Notes: generated by a model from the letters alone, not told the origin. 64,000 nt of DNA from Acidobacteriota bacterium (GCA_013285705.1 JABDHA010000007.1:1-64000); one strand, 5' to 3'; counted from the stretch's first letter, positions 6,724 through 39,317 are shown. Numbers and translations are program-made.

Positions 6724-7836
6724 CTATCTTTCGCGGCGCGCTGAGTCCGCTGCGGTTGCCAGGGCACTCAGGGTCGCTAAGAACTGCCCGGACTGGCCGG
6801 TGAAGAGACCGGATCCTGTAAGTGACTCTACAGCGGCCATTGCTCCTCCAAATTGGTCAGACAGGGGACGGATGACCGCGCACTTCGGCAGCTGTGGGCT
6901 GATGAATTCGCACGGAACAGGGAAGATGAGATTGGTTTGCAGAAGAGGGTTGGGAGGATTGTTGAAGTTAGGAAAGGTGAGACCGTTGTCCGTGACTGGA
7001 GACTGTTGATTATTGAAATCGAAGGGCGGCCCCTGTACTGCATTGCCGGCGAAATCGACCCACTCGAGAAAGTGAGCAATTTCATCCCCGCCAATACCAA
7101 GAGTGATACGCAACACTTCAGCGCTGCTCACTTTCTGGCTAAGGGCAGCATAAAGACTGGAACCACCCTGCTCGATGGAGCCGAAGTGGAATGCCGCCGT
7201 GTCCGCGATGGCCTGAATATGATCCTCCCCTTCGAAATCTACGTCGTTTCTGGGGATGGCTGTACGGCTGTTGATTTTGATAGCCTGGGGAAAAGTGGCG
7301 CCAAAGTCAGGGTTCGTTTCGCTGCGATACCGGATATACCAGCTTGTATCGACGTTGAGTTGCATTAGGTTGGTTAGACGGCCAATGTCTTTCGCTCCTG
7401 TGGCCTGGCTGCCTTTGAGATTGCGAAACTTATCGAGGTTGACCGGATCAGCGCCCTTCGATTCGAGGTAGGCGTTGATAAAAGTCGCATGGCTCACTTC
7501 GTCGAGCGTGTTACTGGTGATGTACTGAGAGCCATCTCCATCGAGAAACTGTAAGGCTAACTGATACCTGTTCTGTGTACCACTGGTGACTCCTCCAAGC
7601 TCGGTATATTGGGTCCAGAGATCGGATTCAATTAACTCCGCAGCCGCAAGAAAACGGAGGATTGCTACGTCTCCGCGGCTAAGGCGATCGTCACGGTCGT
7701 TGTCCTCACCGAAAGCGGGACTTCCACCACTTAGCAGGCCAGCACCTATTGTCGCCGCACCTCCTGCGAGCATTCCTGTTTTCATAAAAGAACGGCGGTT
7801 TACGGAACGTTCGTAAACATTCTTTAGTTTTTTCAT
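6724..7836 (-). CDS. Tat-exported ferritin-like domain protein
   Basis: The N terminus has a twin-arginine signal (NRRSFMKTG followed by a Gly/Ala-rich hydrophobic stretch and cleavage near SPAFG), so the folded protein is exported. The body is a ferritin-like four-helix fold of the type found in desiccation-related secreted proteins: helix I with LRFLAAAELIESDLWTQY, a second helix with EVSHATFINAYLES, and later helices with DHIQAIADTAAFHFGSIEQ and GGDEIAHFLEWVDF. The repeated Glu and His could hold a di-metal centre. ATG 7836 is the last start before the signal; the ribosome binding site is weak. It stands alone. Metal content and substrate are unknown. Confidence 0.82.
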   Translation of the reverse strand: MKKLKNVYERSVNRRSFMKTGMLAGGAATIGAGLLSGGSPAFGEDNDRDDRLSRGDVAILRFLAAAELIESDLWTQYTELGGVTSGTQNRYQLALQFLDGDGSQYITSNTLDEVSHATFINAYLESKGADPVNLDKFRNLKGSQATGAKDIGRLTNLMQLNVDTSWYIRYRSETNPDFGATFPQAIKINSRTAIPRNDVDFEGEDHIQAIADTAAFHFGSIEQGGSSLYAALSQKVSSAEVLRITLGIGGDEIAHFLEWVDFAGNAVQGPPFDFNNQQSPVTDNGLTFPNFNNPPNPLLQTNLIFPVPCEFISPQLPKCAVIRPLSDQFGGAMAAVESLTGSGLFTGQSGQFLATLSALATAADSARRER

Positions 7837-8159
7837 GAGGGAGCTTTTCCTACCTTCTGGGTGTAGAGCACACCCATGGGAGAACGTAGGACGCGGCGCT
7901 AACTTAATTGCCACGGAATTGTAAAATCATTGTCCTTTCATTCTGAATCCGGACGTTTGGTCTCACCAGGCAAGAGCGGCGGCCCGGGGGATAGAGGATG
8001 AACATCCCGCACCGTGGTGAATCGACGATCGCCAGGCCCTAACGTATTTGTCTGTGCGCGTCCTACCTTGTAGGGCCGTGTCTTTGGGCTGATTTTCCTG
8101 AGAAATCCACGCCCACAGCAGGAACCCGCCCGGTTCTTAAATATGCCCGAATAAACGAA
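7837..8159. other. Intergenic stretch without a visible gene
   Basis: Between the ferritin-like gene and the operator array at 8160 there is no open frame with a ribosome binding site or family signature. It must hold the promoter of the leftward ferritin-like gene. I see no strong -35/-10 pair, repeat or terminator here. Confidence 0.5.
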
Positions 8160-8205
8160 TGACATTTGACTGACAACACTGTGACAAACGGGAACGAGGT
8201 ATTTT
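8160..8205 (+). promoter_or_regulatory. TGACA-box array and -10 element upstream of the radical SAM cluster
   Basis: Three hexamers stand in exact 11-bp register: TGACAT (8160), TGACAA (8171) and TGACAA (8182). A -10-like TATTTT begins at 8200, eighteen bases after the start of the last box. The radical SAM gene starts at 8225. The same arrangement recurs at 19010, 35454 and 39215. The 11-bp direct repeat is the normal target shape of OmpR/PhoB-type response regulators, and the only one in the window is encoded at 25586-26323. Binding by that protein is inferred. Confidence 0.7.
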
Positions 8206-8224: not shown

Positions 8225-9742
8225 TTGGAGCGTGCTTTGCGTAAATCTCGAAAGATCGTCTTCTTCTTTCCGTCATTTTCCAGCTCGGAAGCCACAGCTC
8301 CCCTCGGAATTCTGGCGGTTGCGACCCCGTTAATCCAAGCTGGGTTTGAGGTGGTGCTGATCGATTCCACCATTACGCCAAACTTCAAGCAGCGAGTTCT
8401 CAATGAGGTGCGGGATGCCCTCTGCCTCGGCATCTCCCTTGTGACCGGCCCGATGATTCGCGAAACTGTGGACATCGCCAAAACCATCAAGGCGTGGAAT
8501 CCCGATTTCCCCATCGTTCTGGGTGGATGGCATCCCTCGCTGCTCCCCAAGCAAACATTGGAAGCACCCTATCTTGACTACATTGTGCGCGGGCAGGGGG
8601 AGGATACATTTCTCGAACTGGTCCGTCATATCGCAAGCGATTCAGCCCCTGACTTTGTGGCCGGGATCGGTTTCAAGCGGGACGGCCGCATGATTATGAC
8701 TCCCGAGCGCCCACTTAGGGCTCTGGCCGATATGCCGCCCAAGGCCTATCAGATTGCTGACTTTGATGCGTATGAGCGCAGCTGTGGCCGGCGCTGGGCC
8801 ATGTATACCTCGAGTCTTGCATGTCCTTTCAACTGCGCATACTGCACAAACGCCGGAGTCTACGGGCGGAAGTGGAATGCATTGTCGCCTGAGCAGTTTG
8901 TCGAAGAGACAGTCGACCTCAGCCGGCGATATGCCCTTGAGATGATCTGGATCGTGGATGACAACTTCCTTGTGGATTTGGATCGTGCACGGGGAATCGC
9001 AGAAGGACTGGTGCGGGAAAAGTCTCATTATCGCTGGAGCATACAGGCCACCACCAACATGGTGGCGCGGCTTTCACCTGAAGACCTGAAATTGCTGCAC
9101 CGCGCTGGTCTTCATCAGGTATGTCAGGGAGTCGATTCCGGCTCGCGCGATGTCCTGAAGGCGATGCACAAAGACTGGCAGGACTTTGAATCGATCTATG
9201 AAAGCGCTGCTCGTTGCCTTGAGGCAGGCATTCGTCCTTCATTCAACATCATCTTCGCCTTCCCGGGAGAAAAAAAGAAAGAGCGCCGCGAAACCATTAA
9301 CTTCATGATGGACGTGTGCCGCCGTTTTCCCGGCGCGGAGTTCTGGACCAATATATTCACGCCGTATCCAGGTTCTCCGATCTTCGAGAAGACGGAGGAA
9401 CTCGGCATAGAGATGCCGACTTCACTCGAGGGTTGGGCAGACTTCTTTCCGCGTTACACCAGGCTGCCCTGGCTCGACGGGGCAGAGCACGATCGGCTGC
9501 AGGTCATGCGGGACTATCTCCGCATCGCCTTCGATCGCATTCCCATTGCAGCGGACAAGCGTGGTCCGATCACTCGCCTTGCGCAGAAGTCTATTTCCTT
9601 CCCGGCTCGATGGAGATTAGACAGGGATATTTATAAGTTTCCAGTGGAGCTTTGGGTAAACAACAAGCTGAAGAAATATACTGCCATGAAACCGGCGGTA
9701 GATGCGAAACGGCTTGCCAATACACCGGCTGAGGCTTGCTGA
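8225..9742 (+). CDS. Cobalamin-binding-domain radical SAM protein (first of the cluster)
   Basis: A 505-residue class B-type radical SAM enzyme. The N-terminal Rossmann-like B12 domain (about 10-135) has the APLGILAVATPL entry, the LGGWHPSL segment and VRGQGEDTFLELV. The radical SAM core follows, with iron-sulfur cysteines C200, C204 and C207 (SLACPFNCAYC) and the downstream WIVDDNF and GVDSGS motifs. Such enzymes use cobalamin and a 5'-deoxyadenosyl radical, often to methylate unreactive carbons. The start is a TTG at 8225 with a weak ribosome binding site; nearly all conserved sequence begins at residue 9. It opens an eight-gene run behind the TGACA-box array. The substrate is unknown. Confidence 0.88.
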   Translation: MERALRKSRKIVFFFPSFSSSEATAPLGILAVATPLIQAGFEVVLIDSTITPNFKQRVLNEVRDALCLGISLVTGPMIRETVDIAKTIKAWNPDFPIVLGGWHPSLLPKQTLEAPYLDYIVRGQGEDTFLELVRHIASDSAPDFVAGIGFKRDGRMIMTPERPLRALADMPPKAYQIADFDAYERSCGRRWAMYTSSLACPFNCAYCTNAGVYGRKWNALSPEQFVEETVDLSRRYALEMIWIVDDNFLVDLDRARGIAEGLVREKSHYRWSIQATTNMVARLSPEDLKLLHRAGLHQVCQGVDSGSRDVLKAMHKDWQDFESIYESAARCLEAGIRPSFNIIFAFPGEKKKERRETINFMMDVCRRFPGAEFWTNIFTPYPGSPIFEKTEELGIEMPTSLEGWADFFPRYTRLPWLDGAEHDRLQVMRDYLRIAFDRIPIAADKRGPITRLAQKSISFPARWRLDRDIYKFPVELWVNNKLKKYTAMKPAVDAKRLANTPAEAC

Positions 9743-9789
9743 TGCTAAATAATGTTCATGCCGGGGTGAAAGAGGTCTTGAGGTGATCC

Positions 9790-11295
9790 GTGACTGATGT
9801 TTTGCTGACACATTCCTATCACCTTCCATACGACTTGAAACAGGTGCGCAAGATGCAGCCCTACGCGCCTATTGGCACGTTGTACGCTGCGACCTCGCTG
9901 CGAGAGAAGGGCATCACAACTGCCGTATTCGATCCAATGCTGGAAGACCCGGCAGCCGGCATCCTTCGTGCACTGGAGACGCATCGCCCCCGTATTGTTG
10001 CTATCTATGAAGACGACTTCAATTTCCTTTCAAAGATGTGCCTTACGCGCATGAGGGAAGTTGCATGGGCGATTGCTGCCTCTGCCCGAAAGACAGGCGC
10101 AATCGTGGTTGCTCATGGTTCGGACGCAACCGACAATGCCCGCTTATTTCTTGAGAACGGAGTCGATTTCATTCTGCAGGGCGAAGCTGAGGAGACATTG
10201 GCCGAGCTCTGTTCCGCGCTGCTGCATTCAGAGTCCGTGGACAATATAGCCGGTCTTGTTCGCCTCGATGCTCATGGGAAACCGAGCTACAACATGCAGC
10301 GGTCCGCCAGAAATCCGGAATGGATATCCCTGGCGCATCCCTCGCGCGACCTCATCGATCTTGCACCTTACCGTAGGGCGTGGACGGAGGCTCACGGCTA
10401 TTTCTCCGTGAATATGGTGTCGAGCAGAGGCTGCCCTTATCGGTGCAACTGGTGTGCCAAGCCGATCTCAGGAGACAAATTTCATCTGCGTCCTGCCGAA
10501 GTTGTTGCTGAAGAGATGCGGGTGCTCAAATTTGAAGTGCAGGCTGAGCATATCTGGTTTGGCGATGACATCTTCGCGCTGAATCGCCATTGGATGCAGC
10601 AATTCGCCGCAGAGGTAGAGGCGAGACAGGCTGCTCTTCCATTCAAGATACAGTCACGCGCAGATCTGATGAACGAAACAAGCGTAGAAGCACTTAAAAC
10701 TGCCGGTTGTGCGGAGGTCTGGATGGGGGTGGAGTCCGGCTCCCAGAAAATATTGGATGCAATGGATAAGGGTTTGAGCCTTCCAACGGTCGTTAAAGCC
10801 CGCCAGCGCCTCCGGAAAGCAGGTATCCGTGCATGCTATTTCTTGCAGCTCGGATATCCGGGAGAAACCTGGGAAGACCTGCAGAAAACTATTGCCATGG
10901 TTCGCAGTACGCGTCCCGATGATATCGGCGTCTCTTTCTCTTATCCCCTGCCGGGCACTGTATTTTATGAGCGTGTGCAGGCGCAACTGGGAGAGAAGCG
11001 GAACTGGACAGACAGCGATGATCTTTGCATCATGTTCAAGGCCGCTTACACGAGCGACTTTTATCGTGCCGTGCGCGATGCCCTCCACGCAGAAGTGAGC
11101 AGTTGGCGCGTTGCTTCCTCTGAGCCGGAAACTGTTTCGCATATTGAAGAGCTATGGCAGAAAGTCTTCGCGCTCGAACCTGTGAGCCGAAACGCGGAGT
11201 CGACTGTTCTTCCTCCGGTAACTTCTGAGGGCCGAAGCGCTGTGCACTCCGGATTTATTCCTGTAAGTGAGTTCATTACGGTAACAGGAGGCTAG
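9790..11295 (+). CDS. Cobalamin-binding-domain radical SAM protein (second of the cluster)
   Basis: A 501-residue protein of the same class but a different subfamily, closer to the third gene than to the first. The B12-type domain spans about residues 3-145 (PYAPIGTLYAATSL at its start, then LQGEAEETLAEL). The radical SAM cysteines are C215, C219 and C222 (SRGCPYRCNWC). WFGDDIF and WMGVESGSQKILDAMDKG are core motifs. The C-terminal 120 residues are family-specific. GTG 9790 has GAGGTGA five bases upstream. The next gene begins at the base after its stop. Substrate and product cannot be named from sequence. Confidence 0.88.
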   Translation: MTDVLLTHSYHLPYDLKQVRKMQPYAPIGTLYAATSLREKGITTAVFDPMLEDPAAGILRALETHRPRIVAIYEDDFNFLSKMCLTRMREVAWAIAASARKTGAIVVAHGSDATDNARLFLENGVDFILQGEAEETLAELCSALLHSESVDNIAGLVRLDAHGKPSYNMQRSARNPEWISLAHPSRDLIDLAPYRRAWTEAHGYFSVNMVSSRGCPYRCNWCAKPISGDKFHLRPAEVVAEEMRVLKFEVQAEHIWFGDDIFALNRHWMQQFAAEVEARQAALPFKIQSRADLMNETSVEALKTAGCAEVWMGVESGSQKILDAMDKGLSLPTVVKARQRLRKAGIRACYFLQLGYPGETWEDLQKTIAMVRSTRPDDIGVSFSYPLPGTVFYERVQAQLGEKRNWTDSDDLCIMFKAAYTSDFYRAVRDALHAEVSSWRVASSEPETVSHIEELWQKVFALEPVSRNAESTVLPPVTSEGRSAVHSGFIPVSEFITVTGG

Positions 11296-12693
11296 ATGCG
11301 AGACCTTCTTCTTACTCACGGCTATTTTCTCTTTGAAGATCCGAAGGAGCGCCAGATCATGAAGCCATACGCTCCGTTAGGAATTCTCTATCTTTGCTCG
11401 CATCTTCGTGGCAAAGGCTTTGATGTCGATGTGTTCGACACAACGTTCTCCGCTCGTGATGTGCTCTTCAATTTTCTGAGAACAGAAAAGCCTTCTGTGC
11501 TTGGAATCTACGCAAATCTGATGACGCGCAGCAATGTCATCGCAATTCTCGCCGTTGCCCGTGAGGCTGGATGGAAGACTGTCGTAGGCGGTCCGGAGCC
11601 AGGCGCTTATACATTGGAATATCTTCAAGCTGGCGCTGACTTCGTTGTCGCAGGCGAGGGCGAGCTGACAATGGAGGAGTTGCTTCAAGCCTTGCGCGAC
11701 GGTGAAACGGACTTCTCGAAGGTAGCAGGGTTAGCATTTTTCGATCAGGACGGGAAGATGTGCCAGATGCCACCGCGTGGCCAGATCGAAAATCTTGATG
11801 AGCAACCGTGGCCGGCCCGAGATGCGATCGACATTCAACGTTATGTCGAGACCTGGCGCACGCATCACGGTAGCGGCTCGATAAATTTCATTACAGCCAG
11901 AGGTTGCCCGTTTCGCTGTAATTGGTGCAGCCATCAGGTCTTTGGGCAATCGCACCGCCGCCGTGATCCGGTCAGGGTGGTGGATGAGGTGGAGTGGTTG
12001 CTCAACAGATATTCGCCAGACATGATTTGGGTCTCCGATGATGTCTTTACGATCAATCATGCGTGGATGCGTTCTTATGCGAATGAAATGCGCCGTCGCA
12101 GTCTGCGTATTCCATTTGAATGCATTTCACGCGCCGATCGTTTGAACGCGGAAATGCTGGATCTGTTGGCAGAGCTTGGTTGTTTTCGTATCTGGATCGG
12201 ATCGGAAAGCGGATCGCAGCGCATTCTCGATGCGATGGATCGCGGCGTAAAGATTGAGCAGGTCCAGAATGCGGTGCGGATGAGCCGCGAGCGCGGTATT
12301 CAAAGTGGGATGTTTTTGATGTGGGGTTATGAAGGCGAAGAGCTTGAAGATATCGAGGCAACGGTCAAGCACGTCAGCACTTCGCGGCCGGATATCTTTT
12401 TCACCACCGTCTCCTATCCAATCAAGGGAACGCCATACTATAAGCGAATTGCAGATCGTCTGGTGCAACTGGAGCCGTGGGCCAAGACATCCGATCGGGA
12501 GCTCACGATCAAAGGAAGACATACGAAACGTTTCTATGCCTATGCGGACAAGCTACTGCGCGATGAAGTAGCTCGAGCTCGCATGTTGCAGGACACGCAC
12601 ACAAATGATTTGGAAAATTTGACCATACTTGAGCAGAGCATTCAAGAATCGCGCGCAGGATTGCACTCCACTTATCACGAGGTGGAACAGTGA
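11296..12693 (+). CDS. Cobalamin-binding-domain radical SAM protein (third of the cluster)
   Basis: A 465-residue paralogue of the preceding gene. Both start with a similar LLTH-x-Y segment and a PYAP-(L/I)-G motif, and share the RGCP-(F/Y)-RCNWC cluster motif, here C204, C208 and C211. The B12-type region (about 1-135) has VAGEGELTMEELL. The core continues with WVSDDVF and WIGSESGSQRILDAMDRG. ATG 11296 follows directly on the previous stop, with AGGAGG five bases ahead. Two similar enzymes side by side suggest successive or alternative reactions on related positions of one substrate, which is an inference. The 3' end overlaps the next gene by four bases. Confidence 0.88.
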   Translation: MRDLLLTHGYFLFEDPKERQIMKPYAPLGILYLCSHLRGKGFDVDVFDTTFSARDVLFNFLRTEKPSVLGIYANLMTRSNVIAILAVAREAGWKTVVGGPEPGAYTLEYLQAGADFVVAGEGELTMEELLQALRDGETDFSKVAGLAFFDQDGKMCQMPPRGQIENLDEQPWPARDAIDIQRYVETWRTHHGSGSINFITARGCPFRCNWCSHQVFGQSHRRRDPVRVVDEVEWLLNRYSPDMIWVSDDVFTINHAWMRSYANEMRRRSLRIPFECISRADRLNAEMLDLLAELGCFRIWIGSESGSQRILDAMDRGVKIEQVQNAVRMSRERGIQSGMFLMWGYEGEELEDIEATVKHVSTSRPDIFFTTVSYPIKGTPYYKRIADRLVQLEPWAKTSDRELTIKGRHTKRFYAYADKLLRDEVARARMLQDTHTNDLENLTILEQSIQESRAGLHSTYHEVEQ

Positions 12694-13508
12694 CCGTTGC
12701 GATCCAGGCACCGCACATCGCGGGGACAGCATTCGACAGGCTGGCCTTCCAATACGATTCGCTATTCACCTTCTCGCTCATCGGGCGAGCGCAGCGCGAC
12801 GTCGTGTGGCAACGTGCGGCCGCGGCATTTTTGCCGGGCAGTCGCGTTCTCGAACTCAACTGCGGCACAGGTGAGGATGCGTTATTTCTCGCGAGTAGAG
12901 GCGTTGTGGTAACTGCTTGTGATGCTTCGAGCCAGATGATCCGGCGCGCAAAATTCAGAAAGAGTCAGGAAGATCCTAATTCTTCTGCAAGCTTCCGCGT
13001 ACTTCCAATCGAGGACTTGCACGAACTAGGCCATCGACCTGTGTTCGATGGAGTATTTTCTAATTTTTCAGGCCTTAATTGTGTCGCAGATCTCTCCCCT
13101 GTGTTCAATAGGCTCGCGATGCTCCTGCGGCCGGGAGCAAAACTGCTCCTTTGCCTGTCTACGCGTTTTTGTGTTTGGGAAATGCTGCATTACGCAATGA
13201 AAAGAGATCTTCAAAAGGCGATACGCCGCTGCTATGGCAGATCGCTGGCGAGTTTTGACGAAGTTTCTTTTCGCACATATTATCCAACGATTCAGTCGCT
13301 GCGCGGCCTGCTCGGCTCAGCATTTCAGTTGCGTTCGATAACGGGCGTCGGTGTCACTGTTCCGCCTTCCTATTTGGAATCATGGATGAGTAAACATCCA
13401 CAGATGCTGCATGTTTTGAAGAGAATCGATGCGACTGTATGTGAATGGCCTATCTTTCGAGTTTTAGGTGATCATATGTTGCTCCAGTTGGAGCGTACCG
13501 AGCCATGA
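12690..13508 (+). CDS. Class I SAM-dependent methyltransferase
   Basis: A 272-residue methyltransferase. Motif I, the SAM-binding glycine loop, is VLELNCGTGEDALFLA (about 53-68), followed by the acidic residue of motif II (VVTACDASSQMIRRA) and FDGVFSNFSGLNCV of the central sheet. The C-terminal half is less typical and probably binds the acceptor. The GTG start at 12690 overlaps the upstream stop (GTGA), so translation is coupled. It transfers a methyl group to an unknown O, N or C acceptor and presumably works on the product of the neighbouring radical SAM enzymes. Confidence 0.86.
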   Translation: MTVAIQAPHIAGTAFDRLAFQYDSLFTFSLIGRAQRDVVWQRAAAAFLPGSRVLELNCGTGEDALFLASRGVVVTACDASSQMIRRAKFRKSQEDPNSSASFRVLPIEDLHELGHRPVFDGVFSNFSGLNCVADLSPVFNRLAMLLRPGAKLLLCLSTRFCVWEMLHYAMKRDLQKAIRRCYGRSLASFDEVSFRTYYPTIQSLRGLLGSAFQLRSITGVGVTVPPSYLESWMSKHPQMLHVLKRIDATVCEWPIFRVLGDHMLLQLERTEP

Positions 13509-14500
13509 CGCAAACACTTAACGACACGAAGACTGGCCTTTCACTGACAGCAGAAAACGGCATTCTATTGCAGTGTCCGAGTTGCATCTCAGGTTTGGGT
13601 TTCTTGCCTTTCTCTAACGCCTACGATGCACACAAGTATGATTGCGCACAGTGCTATTACACGATGCATCACGAGAACGGCATCTGGCAGGCCCTGACGC
13701 CTGAAAGGCTCGCATATTTTTCGCAGTTCATCGAGGAGTATCAAAATATCCGGGCTGCAGAAGGCCGCGGAAGCCTGCGTTCGGAGTTCTACTTGAATCT
13801 CCCCTATAAAGATGTATCGGGAAAGAATGTCTGGCAGTGGAAGATCCGGGCTAACACCTACGATTGTTTACGAAAAAATCTGTTGCCCCGATATAACAGA
13901 AAAAGTCCGCCCAAAGTGCTGGATCTTGGCTCCGGAAATGGCTGGATGAGCCATCGGCTCGGGCTTGAGGGGTACTCTTCCGTAGCAGTCGACCTATTGA
14001 TGAATGATGAGGATGGACTGGGTGCAGCCGTTCATTTCGAGAAGCAGGACGGTTCTCTTTTTCCCCGCTTTCGAGCTGAAATGTCGCGTCTTCCGTTTAT
14101 GGATGAGCAGTTTGATGTTGTCATTTTTAATGCCTCGTTCCACTACGCAGAGAATTATCAAGCTGTTCTGCGAGAAGCGCTGCGCTGCGTAAAGGAGGGA
14201 GGCAGAGTGATTATTGCCGATACTCCCTGGTATTCCACAAATAAGAGCGGCGAACAGATGTTGGCGGAACGCCAGGCTGCCTTCAAACTGCGGTATGGTA
14301 CCGCATCTAATTCCATTCCAAGCCTCGAATATCTCACCGATCAGCGGTTAGATGAATTAGAGAAAGCGCTGAATATTCGATGGGAGAAGATTTCACCTAA
14401 CTATGGACTGCAATGGGCAATGAGGCCGCTGCTCGCAAAACTTCGGGGCAAGCGCGAGCCCTCTCGTTTCAGGATATATAGCACGAGGAAAAACGCTTGA
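13505..14500 (+). CDS. Methyltransferase with N-terminal zinc ribbon
   Basis: A 331-residue fusion. The first 60 residues hold two Cys pairs (C24/C27 and C47/C50), the pattern of a Trm112-like zinc ribbon. The catalytic domain begins near residue 135 with KVLDLGSGNGWMSHRLGLEG (SAM loop), then DVVIFNASFHYAENY and VKEGGRVIIADTPWY, typical of Methyltransf_11 proteins. The start ATG overlaps the upstream stop by four bases (ATGA), and the gene after it overlaps in the same way. The zinc ribbon may stabilise the protein or hold a partner. The acceptor is unknown. Confidence 0.85.
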   Translation: MTQTLNDTKTGLSLTAENGILLQCPSCISGLGFLPFSNAYDAHKYDCAQCYYTMHHENGIWQALTPERLAYFSQFIEEYQNIRAAEGRGSLRSEFYLNLPYKDVSGKNVWQWKIRANTYDCLRKNLLPRYNRKSPPKVLDLGSGNGWMSHRLGLEGYSSVAVDLLMNDEDGLGAAVHFEKQDGSLFPRFRAEMSRLPFMDEQFDVVIFNASFHYAENYQAVLREALRCVKEGGRVIIADTPWYSTNKSGEQMLAERQAAFKLRYGTASNSIPSLEYLTDQRLDELEKALNIRWEKISPNYGLQWAMRPLLAKLRGKREPSRFRIYSTRKNA

Positions 14501-15960
14501 TCATTCTTTTTCATCCACGCGCCACTAGGCCTCGCAACTGTCGCCTTCCGCTTGCCGTGCTCGCACTCGCTGCTGTGCTGGAAGGCCGTGAGGAATATGA
14601 AATCGTTGATGGAAATCTGGATGAACATCCGGTTGACACCATTCTTTCTCTCATCGATAGCCATAACGTTGAGCTGCTGGGTGTTTCCTGTATGCCTGGA
14701 CCGCAGATGGTCGCGGCTATGGAAACCTCGCGGGAGATCAGGAAGCTACGCCCTCACGTCAAGATTGTGTGGGGGGGATATTTTCCTTCTATCTACCCTG
14801 ATTCTGCGCTGAACGCGAAATATGTGGACTTTGTAGTACGGGGTCAGGGTGAAGACACGCTGCTCGAACTGATCGATGCTTTGCGCGGTAACCGCACTTT
14901 TGACGGCATTTTGGGGCTATCTTACAAAGATACGTTCGGCCTCCATCGCAGCAATGCGGAGCGTCCAATGAAGGGGCCCGACAGCTTTCCGTGGTCGCCA
15001 TTCCATCGTTTGCCAGTAGAGAAATATCTGCGGCCATCTTTTTTTGGTAAGCGTACGGCAGTGCATCATGCCAGCATCGGCTGCCCCTTTAACTGCAGTT
15101 TTTGTGGCGTGCACGCGGCCTATGGCCGTGAAGAGCGGATGGAATCACCGCAGCGGACTGTGGCAATCCTCAAGCATCTTATCTCGGAATACGGCGCCGA
15201 CTCAGTGCAGTTCTACGACATGAATTTCTTTCTGCGGGAGGATCATGCGCGCGAACTGGCCGCCCTTATGGAGCCTCTAAATTTGCGCTGGTGGTGTGAG
15301 GGCCGCGTAGATATTATGTCGCGCTACTCCGATGAAACAATGGCAGCTATCAGGCGAGCGGGCTGCACCATGATTTTCTTCGGAGCCGAATCCGGATCGG
15401 ACTGGGCATTGAAAGAGATGCAGAAGGGAATCACAACCGAGCAGACAGTCATCATGGCGCACCGCACGCGCCAGTTCGATATCATCCCTGAGTTTTCATT
15501 TGTTGTTGGAAATCCCACGGACCCGGAACGTGACACGCGGGAGACCCTTGGATTCATCCGCAAGCTGAAGCGCATTAATCCCGACTCGGAGATTATCGTG
15601 CAGCACTACACGCCGACTCCGCAGCGGGGAGAGATGTATGGCCATGTCGACGACAAAATATCTTTTCCGGATACACCGGCAGAGTGGGCAACCAAGAAGT
15701 GGATGGATTTCACTCTTCGTATTGATACGAGTGCTCCCTGGATGAAGGATAAAACCAAGAAGCTGATCGATAACTTTGAAACCGTGATCGGTTCTCGCTG
15801 GCCCACGGTGCAGGATATTCGCGCACCTCGCTGGAGCCGCGCGCTTTTGAAGTCACTCAGCGCCTGGCGCTACGCCTTACGCTTTTACAGTTTTCCGTTC
15901 GAATTGCACCTTGCGAATCAGTTTATTCAATTAAGGAAGCCGAAGCGCGAGAGCTTATGA
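14497..15960 (+). CDS. Cobalamin-binding-domain radical SAM protein (fourth of the cluster)
   Basis: A 487-residue enzyme most like the first of the cluster. The B12-type domain has RLPLAVLALAAVLE at its start, WGGYFPSIYP (about 92-101) and VRGQGEDTLLELIDAL. The iron-sulfur motif is C196, C200 and C203 (SIGCPFNCSFC). The core continues with YDMNFFL and FGAESGSDWALKEM. The start is TTG 14497, overlapping the previous stop (TTGA); no other start lies near the conserved N terminus. The C-terminal 130 residues may select the substrate. Its place between two methyltransferase genes supports a shared pathway. Confidence 0.87.
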   Translation: MIILFHPRATRPRNCRLPLAVLALAAVLEGREEYEIVDGNLDEHPVDTILSLIDSHNVELLGVSCMPGPQMVAAMETSREIRKLRPHVKIVWGGYFPSIYPDSALNAKYVDFVVRGQGEDTLLELIDALRGNRTFDGILGLSYKDTFGLHRSNAERPMKGPDSFPWSPFHRLPVEKYLRPSFFGKRTAVHHASIGCPFNCSFCGVHAAYGREERMESPQRTVAILKHLISEYGADSVQFYDMNFFLREDHARELAALMEPLNLRWWCEGRVDIMSRYSDETMAAIRRAGCTMIFFGAESGSDWALKEMQKGITTEQTVIMAHRTRQFDIIPEFSFVVGNPTDPERDTRETLGFIRKLKRINPDSEIIVQHYTPTPQRGEMYGHVDDKISFPDTPAEWATKKWMDFTLRIDTSAPWMKDKTKKLIDNFETVIGSRWPTVQDIRAPRWSRALLKSLSAWRYALRFYSFPFELHLANQFIQLRKPKRESL

Positions 15961-17915
15961 CGACTTCTCTGGAACCGATCGATGGGGTACGTCATGTAGA
16001 CACATTTTCAGCATGGGCAGATGTCTACGATGCGCAGAAAAATCCTTTGCTGATGCTGGAAGAGCGCTATCTTCTGAGACTTCTTCCTGAGATACAAGAT
16101 CGCGATGTCCTTGATGTGGGTTGCGGCACGGGAAGATGGCTTGCTCATCTGAGTCGCTCCACCCCGCGGAGTCTACATGGAGTCGATCTCTCGCCGCAGA
16201 TGCTTTCTAGAGCGGATATGAAGCGCATCCCGAACGCGCAGTTATCCATTGCTTCATGTACGGATCTCCCGGTGCCGGACGCAAGTATCGATGTATTACT
16301 TGCATCGTTCGTTTTGAGTTATGTAGAAGATTTGTCTTGCGTCGCGAGAGAGTTCGCCAGGATCGCAAGGCCGGGATGTGATTTCTTCCTATCGGACATG
16401 CACCCGAAAACCGCTGCGAATCTTCATTGGAAGCGTTCGTTTCACAACGGAGTGGAGGAATTTCAGCTTCCGGCAATCCATAAGAAAATTCCGGAGATAG
16501 TCGCGGCGTTCCTGGATGCCGGTTTGGTTGTGCGAGCCATCCTTGAACCTCCGTTTGGCAAAGCTGAGCGGAGTGTTTTTGTGGAGCACGGGAAGTTGGA
16601 GCGATTTGCTGAAGCAGAACATCTGCCTTCTATCTATCTATTGCATCTTTCTAAGCCACATCCTGCGCCTGTTTTGTTGCACAAACGGAGTGGATTACAA
16701 AATCAGCATCTCTTGCATGGGGCGCGGTATGCGCCAGGTCCGTACGAAGTGGTCGCCGCATCCGTTTGTACGCGGGATGAGCAAATTGAGATGGTGGGCA
16801 ATGAGCCTTTTATAAATACGGAACATACTGCAACACGCATCGATCTCAATGGGTATCTTCTTCTGCCGGGGCTTATCAATGCGCACGATCATCTGGAATT
16901 CGCTCTCTTTCCTAAGCTTGGCAATGGCACCTATAAAAACGCGAAGCAGTGGGCGCTGGATATTCAGCAAAAGGACGCAGCGACGATTGCGCTGCATCGA
17001 CGAGTTCCTAAGCAGGTCCGTTTATGGTGGGGAGGCATTCGCAATCTGTTGAGCGGAGTGGCAACCGTATGTCACCATAACCCGCTCGATCCTGTGCTAT
17101 TAGAAGACGATTTCCCGGTACACGTAATTTCCCGCTTTGGATGGGAACATTCCCTTTCTTTCGCCGTTGATATTGGCGCCGCGTACCGAAATACAGCAGT
17201 CGATGAGCCGTTTATGATTCATGCCTGCGAGGGCATCGACGAGCAGTCGAAACAAGAACTGCTGAAGCTTGATGAACTTGGAGTGCTGGATCGGCGAACC
17301 ATTCTTATTCATGGATTGGCACTCGACCATGAAGGAGTGGCGCAACTCAACAGATGCGGCGCTGGGCTTGTTACCTGTCCATCTTCCAATGCGTTTCTAT
17401 TCGACAAAGCACCTTCGCGCGAGATTCTGGAGTGCGTTTCGCAGCTTGCGCTCGGCAGCGATTCGCCTCTTACCGCCGCGGGCGACCTGCTTGACGAAAT
17501 TCGTTTCGCAGCAAATGAATGCGCACTTTCTCCGGAGCAGCTTTATTGGCTGGTGACCGATTCACCGGCTTCAATGCTACGGCTTAATCGGGGTGAGGGC
17601 TCGATTCGGCCTGGAGCAAGCGCAGATCTAATCGCTGTGCGCGATCGAGAAGGTGATCCGGCAGAAGTTTTGTCCGCACTTACCTCGGATGATATTGAAC
17701 TCGTTCTCTTGTCAGGCCGAGTACAGTTGGCCTCAGCTTCAATCTTTGAAAGACTTTCTGCGGAAGACAAAAAAGGGTTGGAACCTCTTTGCATCGACGG
17801 AACTCTCCGCTGGTTGCGAGCCCCGATCGAAGATCTGCTGCGCGTGTCGGAAGATGTTTTAGGGAAAGACTCGGTGCGGCTGGGAGGCAAACCGATATGT
17901 CGACCCAGCTTGTAA
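15957..17915 (+). CDS. Methyltransferase-amidohydrolase fusion protein
   Basis: A 652-residue two-enzyme fusion. Residues 15-230 form a class I methyltransferase (DVLDVGCGTGRWLAHL, HGVDLSPQML, LLASFVLSYVEDL). Residues 250-625 form a metal-dependent amidohydrolase of the cytosine deaminase/ATZ-TRZ type. All expected ligands are visible: H310 and H312 (NAHDH), H422 with E425 (HACEG), H452 (IHGLALD) and D502 (LGSDSPLT). Such hydrolases deaminate or dechlorinate heterocycles or open cyclic amides. Fusion implies that both act on one molecule, possibly a nitrogen heterocycle. ATG 15957 overlaps the previous stop by four bases. No frameshift is needed to join the two parts. Confidence 0.87.
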   Translation: MTTSLEPIDGVRHVDTFSAWADVYDAQKNPLLMLEERYLLRLLPEIQDRDVLDVGCGTGRWLAHLSRSTPRSLHGVDLSPQMLSRADMKRIPNAQLSIASCTDLPVPDASIDVLLASFVLSYVEDLSCVAREFARIARPGCDFFLSDMHPKTAANLHWKRSFHNGVEEFQLPAIHKKIPEIVAAFLDAGLVVRAILEPPFGKAERSVFVEHGKLERFAEAEHLPSIYLLHLSKPHPAPVLLHKRSGLQNQHLLHGARYAPGPYEVVAASVCTRDEQIEMVGNEPFINTEHTATRIDLNGYLLLPGLINAHDHLEFALFPKLGNGTYKNAKQWALDIQQKDAATIALHRRVPKQVRLWWGGIRNLLSGVATVCHHNPLDPVLLEDDFPVHVISRFGWEHSLSFAVDIGAAYRNTAVDEPFMIHACEGIDEQSKQELLKLDELGVLDRRTILIHGLALDHEGVAQLNRCGAGLVTCPSSNAFLFDKAPSREILECVSQLALGSDSPLTAAGDLLDEIRFAANECALSPEQLYWLVTDSPASMLRLNRGEGSIRPGASADLIAVRDREGDPAEVLSALTSDDIELVLLSGRVQLASASIFERLSAEDKKGLEPLCIDGTLRWLRAPIEDLLRVSEDVLGKDSVRLGGKPICRPSL

Positions 17916-18958
17916 ATATAGCTCTGCGCGAAGCCAAACCACATACGCGCGACGAGCAACCGCATGACACTCTCGGGACCCATCGGTTAACTGCATTACC
18001 GATACTGATTCTGAATGTTCACGAACGATGCAACTGCCGTTGCTTAATGTGCGATATCTGGAAGCGGGAAGGTGGAGCAGAGCTTAGGGTAGAAGAGCTT
18101 CGACGCCATCGGGAATCCATCATCCGGTTGGGCGTGCGCCAGGTTGTCCTTACAGGCGGAGAGCCTCTCCTGCACAGTGATCTTTCAGCGATCTGCGGTC
18201 TATTGAAAGAGTGTGGTGTCAACATAACATTGCTTTCAACCGGGCTGCTACTCAAGAAGCGTGCCGAGTTGGTGGCCTCATTTTGTGACGAGGTTATTGT
18301 TTCACTCGATGGCCCTGAAGAAACACACGACCGTGTGCGTTGCGTGCAGGGAGCGTTTCGATTGATGCGTGAGGGCATTCTTGCGGTCCGGCAACAGAAG
18401 CCAGAGATGCGTGTCAACGGACGCAGCACCATACAGAAGGCGAATCATGCACTACTGAGGCAGACGGTTCATGCTGCCAAGTTGCTGGAACTGGATTCCA
18501 TCTCATTTCTTGCTGCTGACGTTTCTTCACAAGCGTTCAATCGCGAACTTGTCTGGTCAGGCGAGCGCCAGAACGACATTGCTCTTTCGCGGGAGGAAGT
18601 GATTGCGTTGAAAGCAGAAGTCGACCGATTGATCCGCGACAATGGCGATGATATTCATTCGAAATACATTGTCGAGCCACCCGAGAAACTTTATCGAATC
18701 GTGCGCCGCTTCCGCGAAGATCTGGGAGAGATTCCACCGCAGGCCCCTTTATGCAACGCCCCCTGGGTTTCTGCCGTCATGGAAGTCGACGGCTCGATAC
18801 GGCCGTGCTTTTTCCATCGCAAGGTTGGCAGTCTAAAATCCATGTCGCTTGAAGAAGCGATCAATACCGAAGATGCTCAGTTGTTCAGACGCACGCTCGA
18901 TGTACCGGAAAATCCAATCTGCAAACGTTGTGTCTGTTCATTGCATTACAAGAAATAG
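17897..18958 (+). CDS. Radical SAM/SPASM-domain protein
   Basis: A 353-residue radical SAM enzyme with the cluster motif C45, C49 and C52 (ERCNCRCLMC), the GGEPLL segment typical of the fold, and a C-terminal SPASM-like cysteine region (PLCNAPW, then IRPCFFHR, and finally PICKRCVC) that would hold auxiliary iron-sulfur clusters. Relatives include peptide-maturing enzymes and enzymes acting on sugars or nucleotides. I chose ATG 17897 (GGAGG nine bases upstream), giving an 19-base overlap with the preceding gene; a start at 17789 is in frame but adds a non-conserved basic leader. It closes the cluster. No precursor peptide is evident nearby. Confidence 0.87.
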   Translation: MSTQLVNIALREAKPHTRDEQPHDTLGTHRLTALPILILNVHERCNCRCLMCDIWKREGGAELRVEELRRHRESIIRLGVRQVVLTGGEPLLHSDLSAICGLLKECGVNITLLSTGLLLKKRAELVASFCDEVIVSLDGPEETHDRVRCVQGAFRLMREGILAVRQQKPEMRVNGRSTIQKANHALLRQTVHAAKLLELDSISFLAADVSSQAFNRELVWSGERQNDIALSREEVIALKAEVDRLIRDNGDDIHSKYIVEPPEKLYRIVRRFREDLGEIPPQAPLCNAPWVSAVMEVDGSIRPCFFHRKVGSLKSMSLEEAINTEDAQLFRRTLDVPENPICKRCVCSLHYKK

Positions 18959-19009: not shown

Positions 19010-19066
19010 TGACAAAACAATGACAATTAGTTGACGGCCATCTGACACGTCTTGTCACGGTACTCG
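19010..19066 (+). promoter_or_regulatory. Four-box TGACA array upstream of the flippase gene
   Basis: TGACAA (19010), TGACAA (19021), TGACGG (19032) and TGACAC (19043) are each exactly 11 bases apart, the most regular array of the window. A weak -10 candidate (TACTCG, 19061) lies 18 bases after the start of the last box, the same distance as at 8160 and 39215. The array shows that the flippase gene has its own promoter and is not just the end of the radical SAM transcript. The response regulator at 25586-26323 is the likely binder (inference). Confidence 0.75.
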
Positions 19067-19135: not shown

Positions 19136-20461
19136 ATGAAAACACATTTGTCGAACGCTGCCTATGGGATTTTGGACTACGCCGCATACCCCATCGGAAT
19201 GCTGATCGTCGCACCGGTGATGCTGCGAAATCTAGGTGTTCCGCAATACGGTATATGGGCTGTTGTAACTGCCGCAGTGAGTACTGGCTCAATCATAGCT
19301 TCCGGTTTCGGCGATGCAAACATTCAGCATGTCGCAACGCAACGTAGTGTCGGCGATTCTGACGCGTTGTTGCGCGCAGTGCGCAGCACGATGGGCATTC
19401 ATCTGATTCTGGGTGCTGCGATTGCACTGATTTCATGGATGATGGCCCCGTATGTGGCAAGGCATGTTACCGCTGCTGATGCTGATTTGCAGTCCACCTG
19501 CCTGTGGTCCCTACGGATCGCCAGCGTAGTGATACTGGTGCGTACCATCGAGACTGTGTGCATCAGCACGCAAAGAGCCTTTGAGCGTTATGGCGCTGCA
19601 GTGCGAATCAGCATTTTCGTCCGTCTGTTGACGCTGGCAGCAGCCGCAATACTCAGCAGAGTGGGCCAAACCGTTGTTAGCATCATGGCCGCGACGGCAG
19701 TTCTTATTGTGCTGGGATTGTGGTTGCAGATGGCTCGTCTCAAAGAGCTTCTGCATGCTGACTCTCTAACTCCGGCATTCGATCGCGAGGCCACCAGAGC
19801 GCTTTTCGCATTTGGCATCTTCAGCTGGCTCCAGGCCGTGTCGGGTGTCATCTTCAGCCAAACGGACAGGCTGATTACGGGTGTTTCGCTGGGAGCGACC
19901 ACTGTAGCATCATATGCTCTTTGCGTCCAGATGGCACAGCCGATCTACGGCTTCGCCGCGTCGGGTCTTCACTTTCTTTTTCCCTATCTTGCCCAGCGGC
20001 ACGCCACAACATCAGCACAAGAATTGAGAAAAGCAGTGCTGCTCTCCTTCATCGCGAATCTGTCCCTCGTTGCGCTTGGTGCAGCGACCCTTCTTCTTTT
20101 CGGCAACCGCATACTTCACGCCTGGGGAGGTGACGCCATTGCACAGAGTGCTACGCGCATTCTTCCGCTTGTGGTATGGAGTTCTGCTTTGCTGGGACTG
20201 AATGTCACCGGCACATATGCCATGCTCGCGCTCGGTCGTGTGCGAGTAATTACTTGGATCAATCTCGGGAGCGGGGGAGTCATGCTGCTGCTGATTATGT
20301 GGCTGCTTCCTCGTTATGGAGTTTATGGGGTAGCAATTGCCCGTTTTTGTTATAGCCCGATTACGCTCCTTCTCTATATTCCGCTCTTATCTCTTTTATA
20401 TTTTGGTTCCGATATTGGCATGCGTGTAGCGACAACTGTTCCGACCTGCGAGGAGGTATGA
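19136..20461 (+). CDS. Wzx-like polysaccharide flippase
   Basis: A 441-residue integral membrane protein with about 12-14 helices throughout, starting MKTHLSNAAYGILDYAAYPIG, which is typical of the oligosaccharide flippase (Wzx/RfbX, MOP superfamily). It would move lipid-linked glycan units from the inner to the outer face of the cytoplasmic membrane. The start is ATG 19136 (AAGG upstream); a longer frame to 19052 would overlap the promoter. Its stop overlaps the start of the glycosyltransferase gene, so the two are translated together. It complements the Wzy- and Wzz-like genes 8 kb away, which lack their own flippase. Confidence 0.88.
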   Translation: MKTHLSNAAYGILDYAAYPIGMLIVAPVMLRNLGVPQYGIWAVVTAAVSTGSIIASGFGDANIQHVATQRSVGDSDALLRAVRSTMGIHLILGAAIALISWMMAPYVARHVTAADADLQSTCLWSLRIASVVILVRTIETVCISTQRAFERYGAAVRISIFVRLLTLAAAAILSRVGQTVVSIMAATAVLIVLGLWLQMARLKELLHADSLTPAFDREATRALFAFGIFSWLQAVSGVIFSQTDRLITGVSLGATTVASYALCVQMAQPIYGFAASGLHFLFPYLAQRHATTSAQELRKAVLLSFIANLSLVALGAATLLLFGNRILHAWGGDAIAQSATRILPLVVWSSALLGLNVTGTYAMLALGRVRVITWINLGSGGVMLLLIMWLLPRYGVYGVAIARFCYSPITLLLYIPLLSLLYFGSDIGMRVATTVPTCEEV

Positions 20462-21447
20462 GCAAAATCGTGCCCACTCGTAACTGCGCTGGCCATGTTG
20501 GATCAGGCGTGACTACTTCCGACAGTCAAGGCGGAAAGACCGATAGGGCGCATTTCATGAGGCTCGTCGAAACGCGTCCTCACGCAAACCTACTCGGAGT
20601 GCACGTAGAGCCGCTTGATATGGAGCGCGCCGTCGCCCGCGTCGGAGATGCTCTCAATAAGCCTCACAAGGGATACGTCTGCATGATCGGTGTGCATGGC
20701 ATCATGGAGGCACAACGAAATCCAAATCTTGCTGCAGCCTATGCTAGTGCGCTGATCACAGTGCCCGATGGCATGCCGGCGGTGTGGGTGGGGCACTGGC
20801 AAGGGCACGAGGAGATGCAGCGTGTTGCCGGGCCTGATCTCATGCTGGAGATATTCCGGCGCAAGGAGTTCGCAGGCTACACGCACTTCCTTTATGGAGG
20901 CAAGGAGGGAATTGCGGAGGAGCTTGCCACGAATTTCAAACAGAGATTCCCGCACGCTCACATCGTCGGTACACATACCCCGCCTTTTCGTGACCTCACT
21001 CACGATGAAGAAGAGAATTTGATAGCAACCATCCGCAACCTGAAACCCGACATCATCTGGGTCGGTATCAGCACCCCAAAACAGGAGCTGTTCATGAGAC
21101 GATATCTCCCCAGGATGGAGACGAGGCTCATGTTCGGCGTAGGCGCGGCATTTGATTTCCACACGGGTCGTATTCAAGATTGTGCGGAGTGGATCAAGCG
21201 CGCGGGCTTGCAGTGGTTTCATCGGTTAATGCAGGATCCGCGGCATCTATGGCGCCGCTATCTTCGCAACAACCCTGCATTTCTCTGGCGAATCGCTTTG
21301 CAACTTGCGGGATTGAGAAGCTATCCTACAACACGAGCAGTTCATGCGATCGAGTTCACGCCACGCCCCGCACGCGGACGTGCGAACTTTTCGCAAAACA
21401 AGGGTCAGCCCGCGGCCGTTCGAATACAACCGGAGAGTATCGAGTAG
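20458..21447 (+). CDS. WecG/TagA/CpsF-family glycosyltransferase
   Basis: A 329-residue transferase of glycosyltransferase family 26. Characteristic are VPDGMPAVWVG, the segment YGGKEGIAEELATNFKQRFP, IWVGISTPKQELFM and FGVGAAFDFHTGRI. Family members add N-acetylmannosaminuronic acid or a related sugar to a lipid-linked sugar early in glycan assembly, on the cytoplasmic face. ATG 20458 overlaps the flippase stop; the first 30 residues are not conserved, and ATG 20557 is a possible alternative start. The last 40 residues are a basic tail. The sugar donor cannot be named. Confidence 0.9.
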   Translation: MSKIVPTRNCAGHVGSGVTTSDSQGGKTDRAHFMRLVETRPHANLLGVHVEPLDMERAVARVGDALNKPHKGYVCMIGVHGIMEAQRNPNLAAAYASALITVPDGMPAVWVGHWQGHEEMQRVAGPDLMLEIFRRKEFAGYTHFLYGGKEGIAEELATNFKQRFPHAHIVGTHTPPFRDLTHDEEENLIATIRNLKPDIIWVGISTPKQELFMRRYLPRMETRLMFGVGAAFDFHTGRIQDCAEWIKRAGLQWFHRLMQDPRHLWRRYLRNNPAFLWRIALQLAGLRSYPTTRAVHAIEFTPRPARGRANFSQNKGQPAAVRIQPESIE

Positions 21448-21454: not shown

Positions 21455-22168
21455 TCAATAAGTGGGCTTTGAGTCCTGATCGTATGGCTGGCCGAATTTA
21501 TTTAGATGCGTTGGAGGCTGCTGTGGAATCGAAGACATATTTAACTCGCCGAGATCGCCCGTATCCGACCCGAGGTGGATATCACGTACCAATCGATCCA
21601 GAGCTGGTTGTGGCGTTCCCTCTACCCACACATGCAACTCATACTCGCCGACAGGAACGTCGTGAAGCTGAAATCCGCCGTTGGAATCGGCGATTGCGTA
21701 CAAAGGTGTAGGTAAAGACAGGATTACCGCGCTCATCTCAGGGTGAATATTACAGAAAATATAGGAGACGCCCTCGCGGGAGAATTTGACTTCTTTGGTC
21801 GAGCCTGCCTCGTACAGGCCTAGATCAAACCGTTTGCCATCAAAAAGCGAGAAAACATTGTGAAAGAAGGGATCTTCGTTGGGAAAAAGAACGGTGCTGC
21901 CGACTGGCACGATCAGCAGGTGCGGGCTAAACATCCTATTCTTCTGTACAAGGGTGTAATTGTCACGCGGCGGAAACGGTAAAACGGGTGTTCCTTGGAG
22001 CGGCTTTAGCCAGAGAACCGCAGGAGGTGTGTGACGCTTCATCTGCTCCTGCGGAAACAAAATGTGCATGCGCACATCCACTTTGGTCTGCAAAGAGTTT
22101 CCCTGTGCGGGCAACGTCAATGACAGAACGGCAACGCAAAATAGCTTGTGGACGTACAGCATTCGCAT
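21455..22168 (-). CDS. Exported cupredoxin-domain protein (type 1 copper)
   Basis: A 237-residue exported protein. A signal peptide (about 1-23) is followed by a plastocyanin-like domain (about 75-155). The copper ligands are in place: a His in PFFHNVFS, then Cys, His and Met in FCNIHPEM. A beta-sandwich of the carboxypeptidase-regulatory type follows (GGFQLHDVPVGEYELHVWVEG), with a Pro/Gln-rich tail. Similar proteins are annotated as methylamine utilisation or copper proteins. It is the last gene of an operon with regulator, kinase and porin, three bases behind the porin gene. It probably carries electrons or senses copper or redox state in the periplasm. Confidence 0.8.
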   Translation of the reverse strand: MRMLYVHKLFCVAVLSLTLPAQGNSLQTKVDVRMHILFPQEQMKRHTPPAVLWLKPLQGTPVLPFPPRDNYTLVQKNRMFSPHLLIVPVGSTVLFPNEDPFFHNVFSLFDGKRFDLGLYEAGSTKEVKFSREGVSYIFCNIHPEMSAVILSLPTPLYAIADSNGGFQLHDVPVGEYELHVWVEGTPQPALDRLVRDIHLGSDTGDLGELNMSSIPQQPPTHLNKFGQPYDQDSKPTY

Positions 22169-25585: not shown

Positions 25586-26323
25586 TTACGGAACAAACTT
25601 ATAGCCTGCGCCGTAGATCGTCAGCAGATGGCGCGGGTTGGCTGGGTCCGGTTCCAGCTTTTGCCGCAGCTTGAGTATCTGATTATCTACCGTGCGGGTT
25701 GTTGGATAGGCATTATAGCCCCAGACTTCGTTAAGTAGCAGCTCGCGGCTCAATACCTGTTCCGCATGTTCTGTGAAAAACTTCAACAGCTTGAATTCAT
25801 GGGACGTCAGCATGACGGGAAGCCCACCACGCTGCGCCGTCATTCTCTGAAAGTCGATCTCGCAGTCATCGAAGCGATAGATTGTCGTCGGAGCAGTTCG
25901 GCGACGGCGGCGAATCGCTGCCTGTACGCGAGCCATCAGTTCACGCGGACTGAATGGCTTTGTCACGTAGTCATCGGCACCGAGCTCCAGAAGCAACACT
26001 TTATCGACAACTTCTGCAATGGCGCTGAGCACGATCACCGGAGTATCGCTTGAGATGGTTTTCATACTCTGGCATAGCTCACGACCGGAAATCTGAGGAA
26101 GGATGAGATCGAGGACTACCGCAACCGGCCTGTGAGCGCGAAAAGAATCCAGCCCCGTCTGGCCATCGCCCGCTACGACGACGGAGTAATGTTCGGCGGC
26201 AAAAATACGCCGGAGCACCTTCTGCATGCGCGGATCGTCTTCAACAACGAGAATTGTGCCCAGCCCGGACTCGGGCGTACTTTCATCGGTCGCGGTGACT
26301 GCCGGTTCGATCTCTTTAAGCAT
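25586..26323 (-). CDS. OmpR/PhoB-family response regulator
   Basis: A 245-residue two-domain regulator. The receiver domain (about 22-135) has the acidic pair D29/D30, phosphoacceptor D72 (VVLDLILPQISG) and K122 (TKPFSPREL). The C-terminal winged-helix domain (about 148-245) has the TSHEFKLLKFFTEH segment and the recognition region TRTVDNQILKLRQKL. Members bind as tandem dimers to direct repeats about 11 bp apart. ATG 26323 has a strong AGGAGG upstream. It heads the operon with its kinase, a porin and a cupredoxin. It is the most likely reader of the TGACA-box arrays in this locus, including two boxes in its own promoter. Confidence 0.94.
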   Translation of the reverse strand: MLKEIEPAVTATDESTPESGLGTILVVEDDPRMQKVLRRIFAAEHYSVVVAGDGQTGLDSFRAHRPVAVVLDLILPQISGRELCQSMKTISSDTPVIVLSAIAEVVDKVLLLELGADDYVTKPFSPRELMARVQAAIRRRRRTAPTTIYRFDDCEIDFQRMTAQRGGLPVMLTSHEFKLLKFFTEHAEQVLSRELLLNEVWGYNAYPTTRTVDNQILKLRQKLEPDPANPRHLLTIYGAGYKFVP

Positions 26324-26367
26324 ATTTTTATTTTCCTCCTGAAGATAAGAGGGTTGATAGTGGTATA

Positions 26368-26393: not shown

Positions 26394-26449
26394 TTGTCCC
26401 AGAAAAGTATAGCTGCCTTCCCGTTTGGTGCGACAGTGGCCTGAAATGG

Positions 26450-39260: not shown

Positions 39261-39317
39261 CGTATGCTTGCAATAGCTTACGGAAAATTGAATTGGTGAC
39301 GGTGCGCGATCGAGTAA

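Follow-up and report, generated by a model that had tools for sequence, protein, structure and literature searches.

The eight genes at positions 8225–18958 of the window, the 64,000-nucleotide stretch of acidobacterial DNA analysed here, form a conserved operon (A to H) that is tied to an exported glycan—a tie supported by regulation and gene neighbourhood, not by chemistry. Our preferred reading, which we put just short of an even chance, is that the A–H pathway supplies a building unit with unusual modifications to a Wzx/Wzy glycan or a co-secreted glycoconjugate, and is co-regulated with capsule assembly. A broader form of this proposal is more tentative: a radical SAM pathway spread over several phyla may give an exported glycan or glycoconjugate a carbon-modified component that has so far gone undescribed, with one two-component system co-activating capsule assembly and an envelope CuA/cytochrome chain in the Acidobacteriaceae. 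Computation provides the operon itself, its conservation, a shared operator, a dispersed regulon, a link to glycan, nucleotidyltransferase, and kinase genes, and intact catalytic motifs. If true, a conserved pathway tied to the capsule would reveal new chemistry, of glycans or of metabolites, in soil bacteria that are abundant but poorly understood. Because the operator names the genes of the regulon, the hypothesis is testable at once.

The members of the operon are as follows:
8225–9742, + strand: A, B12-binding/radical SAM protein with a GGWHPS-type cobalamin domain (from the ORF, Pfam, NCBIfam, and relatives)
9790–11295, + strand: B, B12-binding-type/radical SAM protein with the widest distribution of the set (closest among solved structures: AprD4, TsrM, and MgmA)
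11296–12693, + strand: C, B12-binding/radical SAM protein, a paralogue of B (Pfam, relatives)
12690–13508, + strand: D, SAM-dependent methyltransferase that accompanies B across phyla more constantly than any other gene (Pfam, comparison of loci)
13505–14500, + strand: E, SAM-dependent methyltransferase with an N-terminal CxxC...CxxC stretch (Pfam, relatives)
14497–15960, + strand: F, B12-binding/radical SAM protein with the highest sequence conservation (Pfam, orthologue identity)
15957–17915, + strand: G, methyltransferase (N-half) fused to a COG0402-type aminohydrolase (C-half) (Pfam, alignment, model)
17897–18958, + strand: H, radical SAM/SPASM protein (Pfam, motifs)

All eight ORFs lie on the + strand at the coordinates given in the first-pass annotation, and their domains are those it claimed: A, B, C, and F each exceed the cut-offs of PF02310 and PF04055, and H contains Radical_SAM and SPASM. 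D, E, and the first half of G have methyltransferase domains, while Amidohydro_1 makes up the C-half of G. A gap of 47 bases separates A from B, and C follows B without a gap; from 12690 onward the genes overlap as described, by 4 bases at C/D, D/E, E/F, and F/G. H probably starts at ATG 17897, which is preceded by GGGAGG (TTG 17789 is merely the start of the longest ORF), so the overlap at G/H is about 19 bases. The operon was also correctly said to hold no precursor peptide, NRPS, PKS, or terpene gene.

The CxxxCxxC motif reads intact in all five radical SAM proteins (CPFNCAYC, CPYRCNWC, CPFRCNWC, CPFNCSFC, and CNCRCLMC), again as first noted. A, B, C, and F each join an N-terminal B12-binding-type Rossmann domain to a CxxxCxxC radical SAM core, an arrangement shared with the class B, or cobalamin-dependent, enzymes (BchE, HpnR/HpnJ, PhpK, TsrM, OxsB, CysS, and MgmA) and with AprD4. 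By domain content they are class B-type proteins, which may bind cobalamin and may catalyse methyl transfer. However, they all fall below the NCBIfam cut-offs of the named class B equivalogs; no radical SAM member of A–H reached the cut-off of a named B12 radical SAM model (BchE, HpnJ, HpnR, PhpK, BzaD, TIGR04072, and AprD4 were compared), and the best scores were 134.6 (A), 115.9 (B), 165.8 (C), and 115.1 (F) against cut-offs of 481–578. H combines the radical SAM core with a SPASM domain (PF13186, 38.9 bits, cut-off 21.5) carrying additional cysteines at 287, 305, 343, 346, and 348 (numbered from base 17894). The predicted structure of B (pLDDT 87) is close to AprD4, TsrM, and MgmA; AprD4 ranks first in both the profile and the structural comparison, with TsrM, MgmA, and OxsB behind it. 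AprD4 was crystallised with paromamine, an aminosugar-type substrate, and is a diol dehydratase by its PDB title rather than a methylase; since this is the nearest solved structure to B, the label "cobalamin-type" does not by itself imply a methylase.

With such scores, and with no description of the set found in the open-access literature (a source without most subscription papers), the view that A–H matches no described pathway is supported, although the silence of that literature is weak evidence. To our knowledge, four B12-type radical SAM proteins, a SPASM protein, and an aminohydrolase have no known counterpart in one operon, and the few pathways we know of that use more than one B12-type radical SAM enzyme serve mainly to make antibiotics and cofactors.

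The C-half of G has the hallmarks of a COG0402-type aminohydrolase. Its metal and deaminase residues (NxHxH, H, HxxE, H, and D) are invariant in 49 sequences, and the domain is modelled as a TIM barrel (pLDDT 95.9) whose structural neighbours, all at low identity, are AtzA, MTA/SAH deaminases, and isocytosine deaminase. Fold and active site are thus those of the solved members of the group (MTA/SAH deaminase, the AtzA/TrzN atrazine chlorohydrolases, and the isocytosine deaminase Vcz); in contrast to these, the G domain shares only 14–21% identity with them and is usually fused to, or beside, a methyltransferase. In several relatives the two parts of G are separate genes.

The aminohydrolase could be a recycling enzyme—a deaminase of SAH, MTA, or 5'-deoxyadenosine serving the SAM enzymes of the operon—in which case it says nothing about the product. 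Its fusion to a SAM methyltransferase favours such a role, as do its nearest solved relatives by profile search (4dyk, 4gbd, 3lnp, 4dzh, and 4f0r), which are MTA/SAH/adenosine deaminase-type proteins; however, the best of these matches span only the C-terminal half of the domain, about residues 166–337 of 386. MTA/SAH deaminases typically have a ribose-binding glutamate. The NCBIfam model for 5'-deoxyadenosine deaminase (NF005557) was missed by a wide margin, at 47 against 522 bits, and minimal B–D loci of Bacteroidota have no aminohydrolase at all. We consider recycling somewhat unlikely; it is compatible with the glycan explanation and does not compete with the other readings.

The genome containing the window is an incomplete assembly (4.47 Mb in 229 contigs, 59% complete) that, judging from its named near relatives, would belong to the Acidobacteriaceae. 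In this family, most of the related loci that were fetched preserve the gene order A-(A2)-B-C-D-E-F-G-H, where A2 is a second A-like B12 radical SAM gene found in most relatives outside the genus and missing from all three loci of the window's own genus. The neighbourhood check proposed with the first-pass annotation finds a conserved set, collinear within the Acidobacteriaceae and present in altered order in other phyla. This recurrence, with F 64–89% identical to its orthologues in the family, argues that the set is not a chance assembly. In a sample of 396 genomes of the phylum, 35 contain F; within the family, 25 of 150 genomes contain homologues of G. A GTDB scan with B returned at least 544 confirmed relatives; many of the 80 that were kept have a large part of the set, and these belong to Acidobacteriota, Chloroflexota, Ignavibacteriota, Bacteroidota, and Rhodanobacteraceae; D accompanies B in 55 loci among the matches listed. 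The tree of F is mostly grouped by phylum, with Acidobacteriota in three places. Cultured hosts are Edaphobacter lichenicola, E. modestus, Acidobacteriaceae KBS 89 and ZG23-2, Dyella, and Rhodanobacter. Separately, among the matches listed, 23 loci from Chloroflexota, Bacteroidota, and Ignavibacteriota have a 320-aa gene directly in front of B (for example L080:7989–8987 and L110:5609–6571); it has no Pfam match, and we judge it nucleotidyltransferase-like from a GS...DID motif.

The link between A–H and other genes of the window is an operator of direct TGACA repeats, found at the following places:
8160–8186, + strand: A–H operator, TGACATTTGAC TGACAACACTG TGACA, a triple direct repeat with an 11-bp period, 38 bp before A
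19010–19047, + strand: operator of four TGACA-like repeats in tandem, ending about 88 bp ahead of the Wzx start
35311–35348, − strand: operator facing the cupredoxin/NTP_transf_5/export operon (motif scan)
35454–35491, + strand: operator facing the porin (motif scan)
39215–39241, + strand: operator before the HprK-like kinase (motif scan)

The consensus before gene A is roughly TGACAAT-N4-TGACA-N6-TGACA, that is (TGACA-N6) three times with a period of 11 bp. A score of at least 13 of 15 was reached before A in all 21 acidobacterial loci tested, which represent 20 distinct genomes because L028 and L057 share one chromosome; none of 400 random genomic windows reached 12, and 3 of 1680 shuffles reached 13. 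With at most one mismatch allowed, the double box occurs 15 times in the window against 4 expected, and the triple box 10 times in the genome, 5 of them in the window at four places (0 in the reversed control). Weaker operator-like repeats lie at 26366–26403, beside the response regulator. Outside the Acidobacteriaceae, seven clusters gave scores at background level. A cobalamin or other riboswitch was also considered; no Rfam match was found in the window.

The genes around these operators are:
19136–20461, + strand: Wzx-like flippase (ORF from 19052, likely ATG 19136; Pfam)
20458–21447, + strand: WecG/TagA/CpsF-family glycosyltransferase (Pfam, NCBIfam)
21455–22168, − strand: secreted blue-copper-like protein, FFHNVF...FCNIHPEM (by eye; no Pfam match)
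22171–23742, − strand: coiled-coil and beta-barrel porin-like protein (by eye; no Pfam match)
23739–25583, − strand: sensor histidine kinase (dCache_3, HAMP, and HisKA domains)
25586–26323, − strand: PhoB/OmpR-type response regulator (domains)
26450–27640, − strand: GT4 glycosyltransferase
27637–28953, − strand: O-antigen ligase/Wzy
28994–30382, − strand: Wzz
30389–33358, − strand: SLBB polysaccharide export protein
33355–34749, − strand: NTP_transf_5 nucleotidyltransferase, at the head of the export operon
34799 to about 35164–35377, − strand: CuA-type single-domain cupredoxin, motif CSVFCGTGHGKM, at the head of the export operon
35524–36579, + strand: predicted outer-membrane beta-barrel, linked to cytochrome c and cupredoxin genes in relatives
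36918–38060, + strand: NanM-type putative sugar O-methyltransferase (TIGR04371, 71 bits, cut-off 44)
38064–39356, − strand: sulfotransferase
39318–40352, + strand: HprK-related kinase

Direct repeats of 11-bp period ahead of promoters, and a PhoB-type response regulator encoded in the same locus, are features of PhoB/OmpR-type regulons; in contrast to those, the targets here are not phosphate genes and the regulator is assigned by location only. The regulator is probably the neighbouring response regulator at 25586–26323, a candidate binder by co-location. The blue-copper-like gene is linked to the histidine kinase, response regulator, and porin in relatives.

The co-regulated genes include the components of Wzx/Wzy-dependent exopolysaccharide loci: Wzx, Wzy/ligase, Wzz, SLBB export, GT4, and WecG (PF13440, PF04932, PF02706, and PF02563/PF10531). 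Unlike such loci, this one couples them through one operator to a five-enzyme radical SAM operon, an HprK-like kinase, NTP_transf_5, a CuA cupredoxin, and cytochromes. The initial observation that a flippase and glycosyltransferase follow the operon directly is true of the window but not of most relatives, where they are mostly not immediate neighbours; the flippase in the window has its own copy of the operator found before A.

Several smaller features accompany this region. In relatives, the cupredoxin is linked to two small cytochromes c and a beta-barrel (porin35), with no oxidase subunit I noticed nearby; the cupredoxin, cytochromes, and beta-barrel are possibly an envelope electron-transfer chain. 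A ferritin-like secreted protein (6724–7914, − strand) adjoins the operon with a weak upstream match of its own, and has homologues in G119 (L190) and G072 (L196) beside strong operator copies. Directly after the regulon genes, at 41087–47015 (+ strand), HlyD-type and outer-membrane efflux genes surround a 1052-aa ORF.

In three relatives with A–H standing alone (G119, G128, and G072), a search for remote boxes places them on the same partner genes: several lie next to homologues of the histidine kinase and response regulator, porin, cupredoxin, cytochrome c, HprK, NTP_transf_5, SLBB, Wzz, Wzx, Wzy, GT4, WecG, NanM, or the ferritin-like protein. A single operator match is not proof, because other remote boxes adjoin genes without a recognised link (L148–L152, L193, L194, and L198–L200). 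No Wzx/Wzy genes lie near the clusters of G130, G119, G128, and G072; in G128 and G072 they are found at remote operator sites.

Across 100 loci with members of the A–H family, a similarity search found glycosyltransferase/Wzx/Wzy-type genes in 53, NTase genes in 55, and HprK-like kinase genes in 37, each against 0 of 20 random 20-kb regions, an enrichment that is indicative and not a calibrated test because the controls come from five Acidobacteriaceae genomes only, the queries were drawn from the same loci, and a few loci are duplicates. The operator common to capsule-assembly and copper/cytochrome genes suggests that A–H probably makes an unusually modified cell-surface or secreted component. 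The NanM-type sugar O-methyltransferase, which exceeds its curated cut-off, and the aminosugar-type substrate of AprD4, the top match of B, also count in favour of a glycan. The shared operator, the dispersed regulon, and the enrichment of glycan genes next to the family in other phyla lend independent support to the link to an exported glycan that was first guessed from two adjacent genes, but do not extend to the accompanying ideas of a sugar or lipid head group as product and of carbon methylation.

From this evidence we infer that the genes serve one pathway, and the regulator, substrate class, and chemistry of each step below are likewise our interpretation. The operon would encode a multi-step pathway, probably activated by the neighbouring sensor kinase/response regulator pair through the PhoB-type triple TGACA repeat, and switched on together with the Wzx/Wzy export machine, the HprK-like kinase, the nucleotidyltransferase, and the envelope copper/cytochrome proteins. 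The substrate of the four B12-type enzymes and the SPASM enzyme would most likely be a building block of a glycan or the head group of a glycoconjugate, which they would C-methylate, deoxygenate, or rearrange by radical chemistry. Ordinary methyl groups may then be added by D, E, and the methyltransferase half of G, and the aminohydrolase may deaminate the substrate or remove an adenosine-type by-product of SAM. The finished unit would be flipped, polymerised, or co-exported by the co-regulated machinery. Several points speak against this explanation: some clusters have no Wzx/Wzy genes close by, the operator is not found outside the family, the set of random control regions was small, the aminohydrolase group acts on heteroaromatic amines, with no obvious need for one in a sugar pathway, and reduced clusters carry ribA with a natural-product-type glycosyltransferase.

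In these reduced loci (such as L031–L034 and L038–L046) the set has shrunk to B, E, a D-like methyltransferase, and an aminohydrolase encoded on its own, to which are added, in varied combinations, NTP_transf_5, an HprK-like kinase, GT87, an MGT-type UGT, PhyH, and an extra GTP cyclohydrolase II; they also have an ABC exporter, and operators precede many of the units. Because of the extra ribA, the main rival, though a rather unlikely one, is that the product is a secreted small molecule, heteroaromatic and derived from GTP (a pyrimidine, a pteridine, or flavin-like). A RibA-type product would be deaminated by the aminohydrolase, C-methylated by radical chemistry, N/O-methylated, and in some clusters glycosylated and hydroxylated; co-regulation with the capsule would then reflect a shared lifestyle and not shared chemistry. 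The company that B, E, the D-like gene, and the aminohydrolase keep in these clusters fits this route, as does the full, invariant set of deaminase residues. Two copies of GTP cyclohydrolase II, one inside the cluster, were found in all four reduced-cluster genomes tested, RibBA/RibB-type genes occur in three reduced clusters, and one full cluster (L043) has an adjacent RibA. However, nearly all full clusters, including that of the window, have no ribA nearby; no lumazine- or pteridine-forming enzyme was recognised in the vicinity, and an extra RibA could merely boost flavin supply. The cluster copy in G064 (G064:C8:101842–102447) has an in-frame TAG stop and may be decaying. Other copies seen in reduced clusters are an extra ribA at L031:9021–9683 and a ribBA-like gene in G098 (11719–12942 of the joined neighbourhood) with a 15/15 operator upstream.

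A RiPP pathway, in which H and the B12 enzymes modify a peptide encoded elsewhere, is improbable. SPASM and B12 radical SAM enzymes commonly tailor RiPPs, and HprK-like kinases and NTP_transf_5 occur in lasso-peptide clusters; yet the gaps of the operon are too small for any gene, no precursor gene lies within it, no small conserved ORF was noticed by eye upstream of A, and no RiPP equivalog reached its NCBIfam cut-off. A lasso-peptide cluster, suspected from the HprK and NTP_transf_5 genes, was rejected: the small neighbours are cytochrome c and cupredoxin, not PqqD/transglutaminase. Modification of a membrane lipid (hopanoid or ladderane-like) is very improbable, since the likeness to the HpnJ, HpnR, and TIGR04072 models is sub-threshold (70–118 bits against cut-offs of 360–650) and no squalene-hopene cyclase or fatty-acid synthesis genes are among the annotated neighbours. 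Lipid, RiPP, and P-methyl products were set aside as classes, with NCBIfam scores far under cut-offs and no PEP-mutase motif in the distant loci.

Two further genes are worth recording. A type III polyketide synthase-like gene (L028:3506–4789, G117) lies near A–H in one relative, beside WecG and an FAD enzyme. In the window itself, positions 56898–62333 (+ strand) encode a protein of 1811 aa in which legume-lectin-like, chitobiase C-terminal, and Fn3-associated domains recur.
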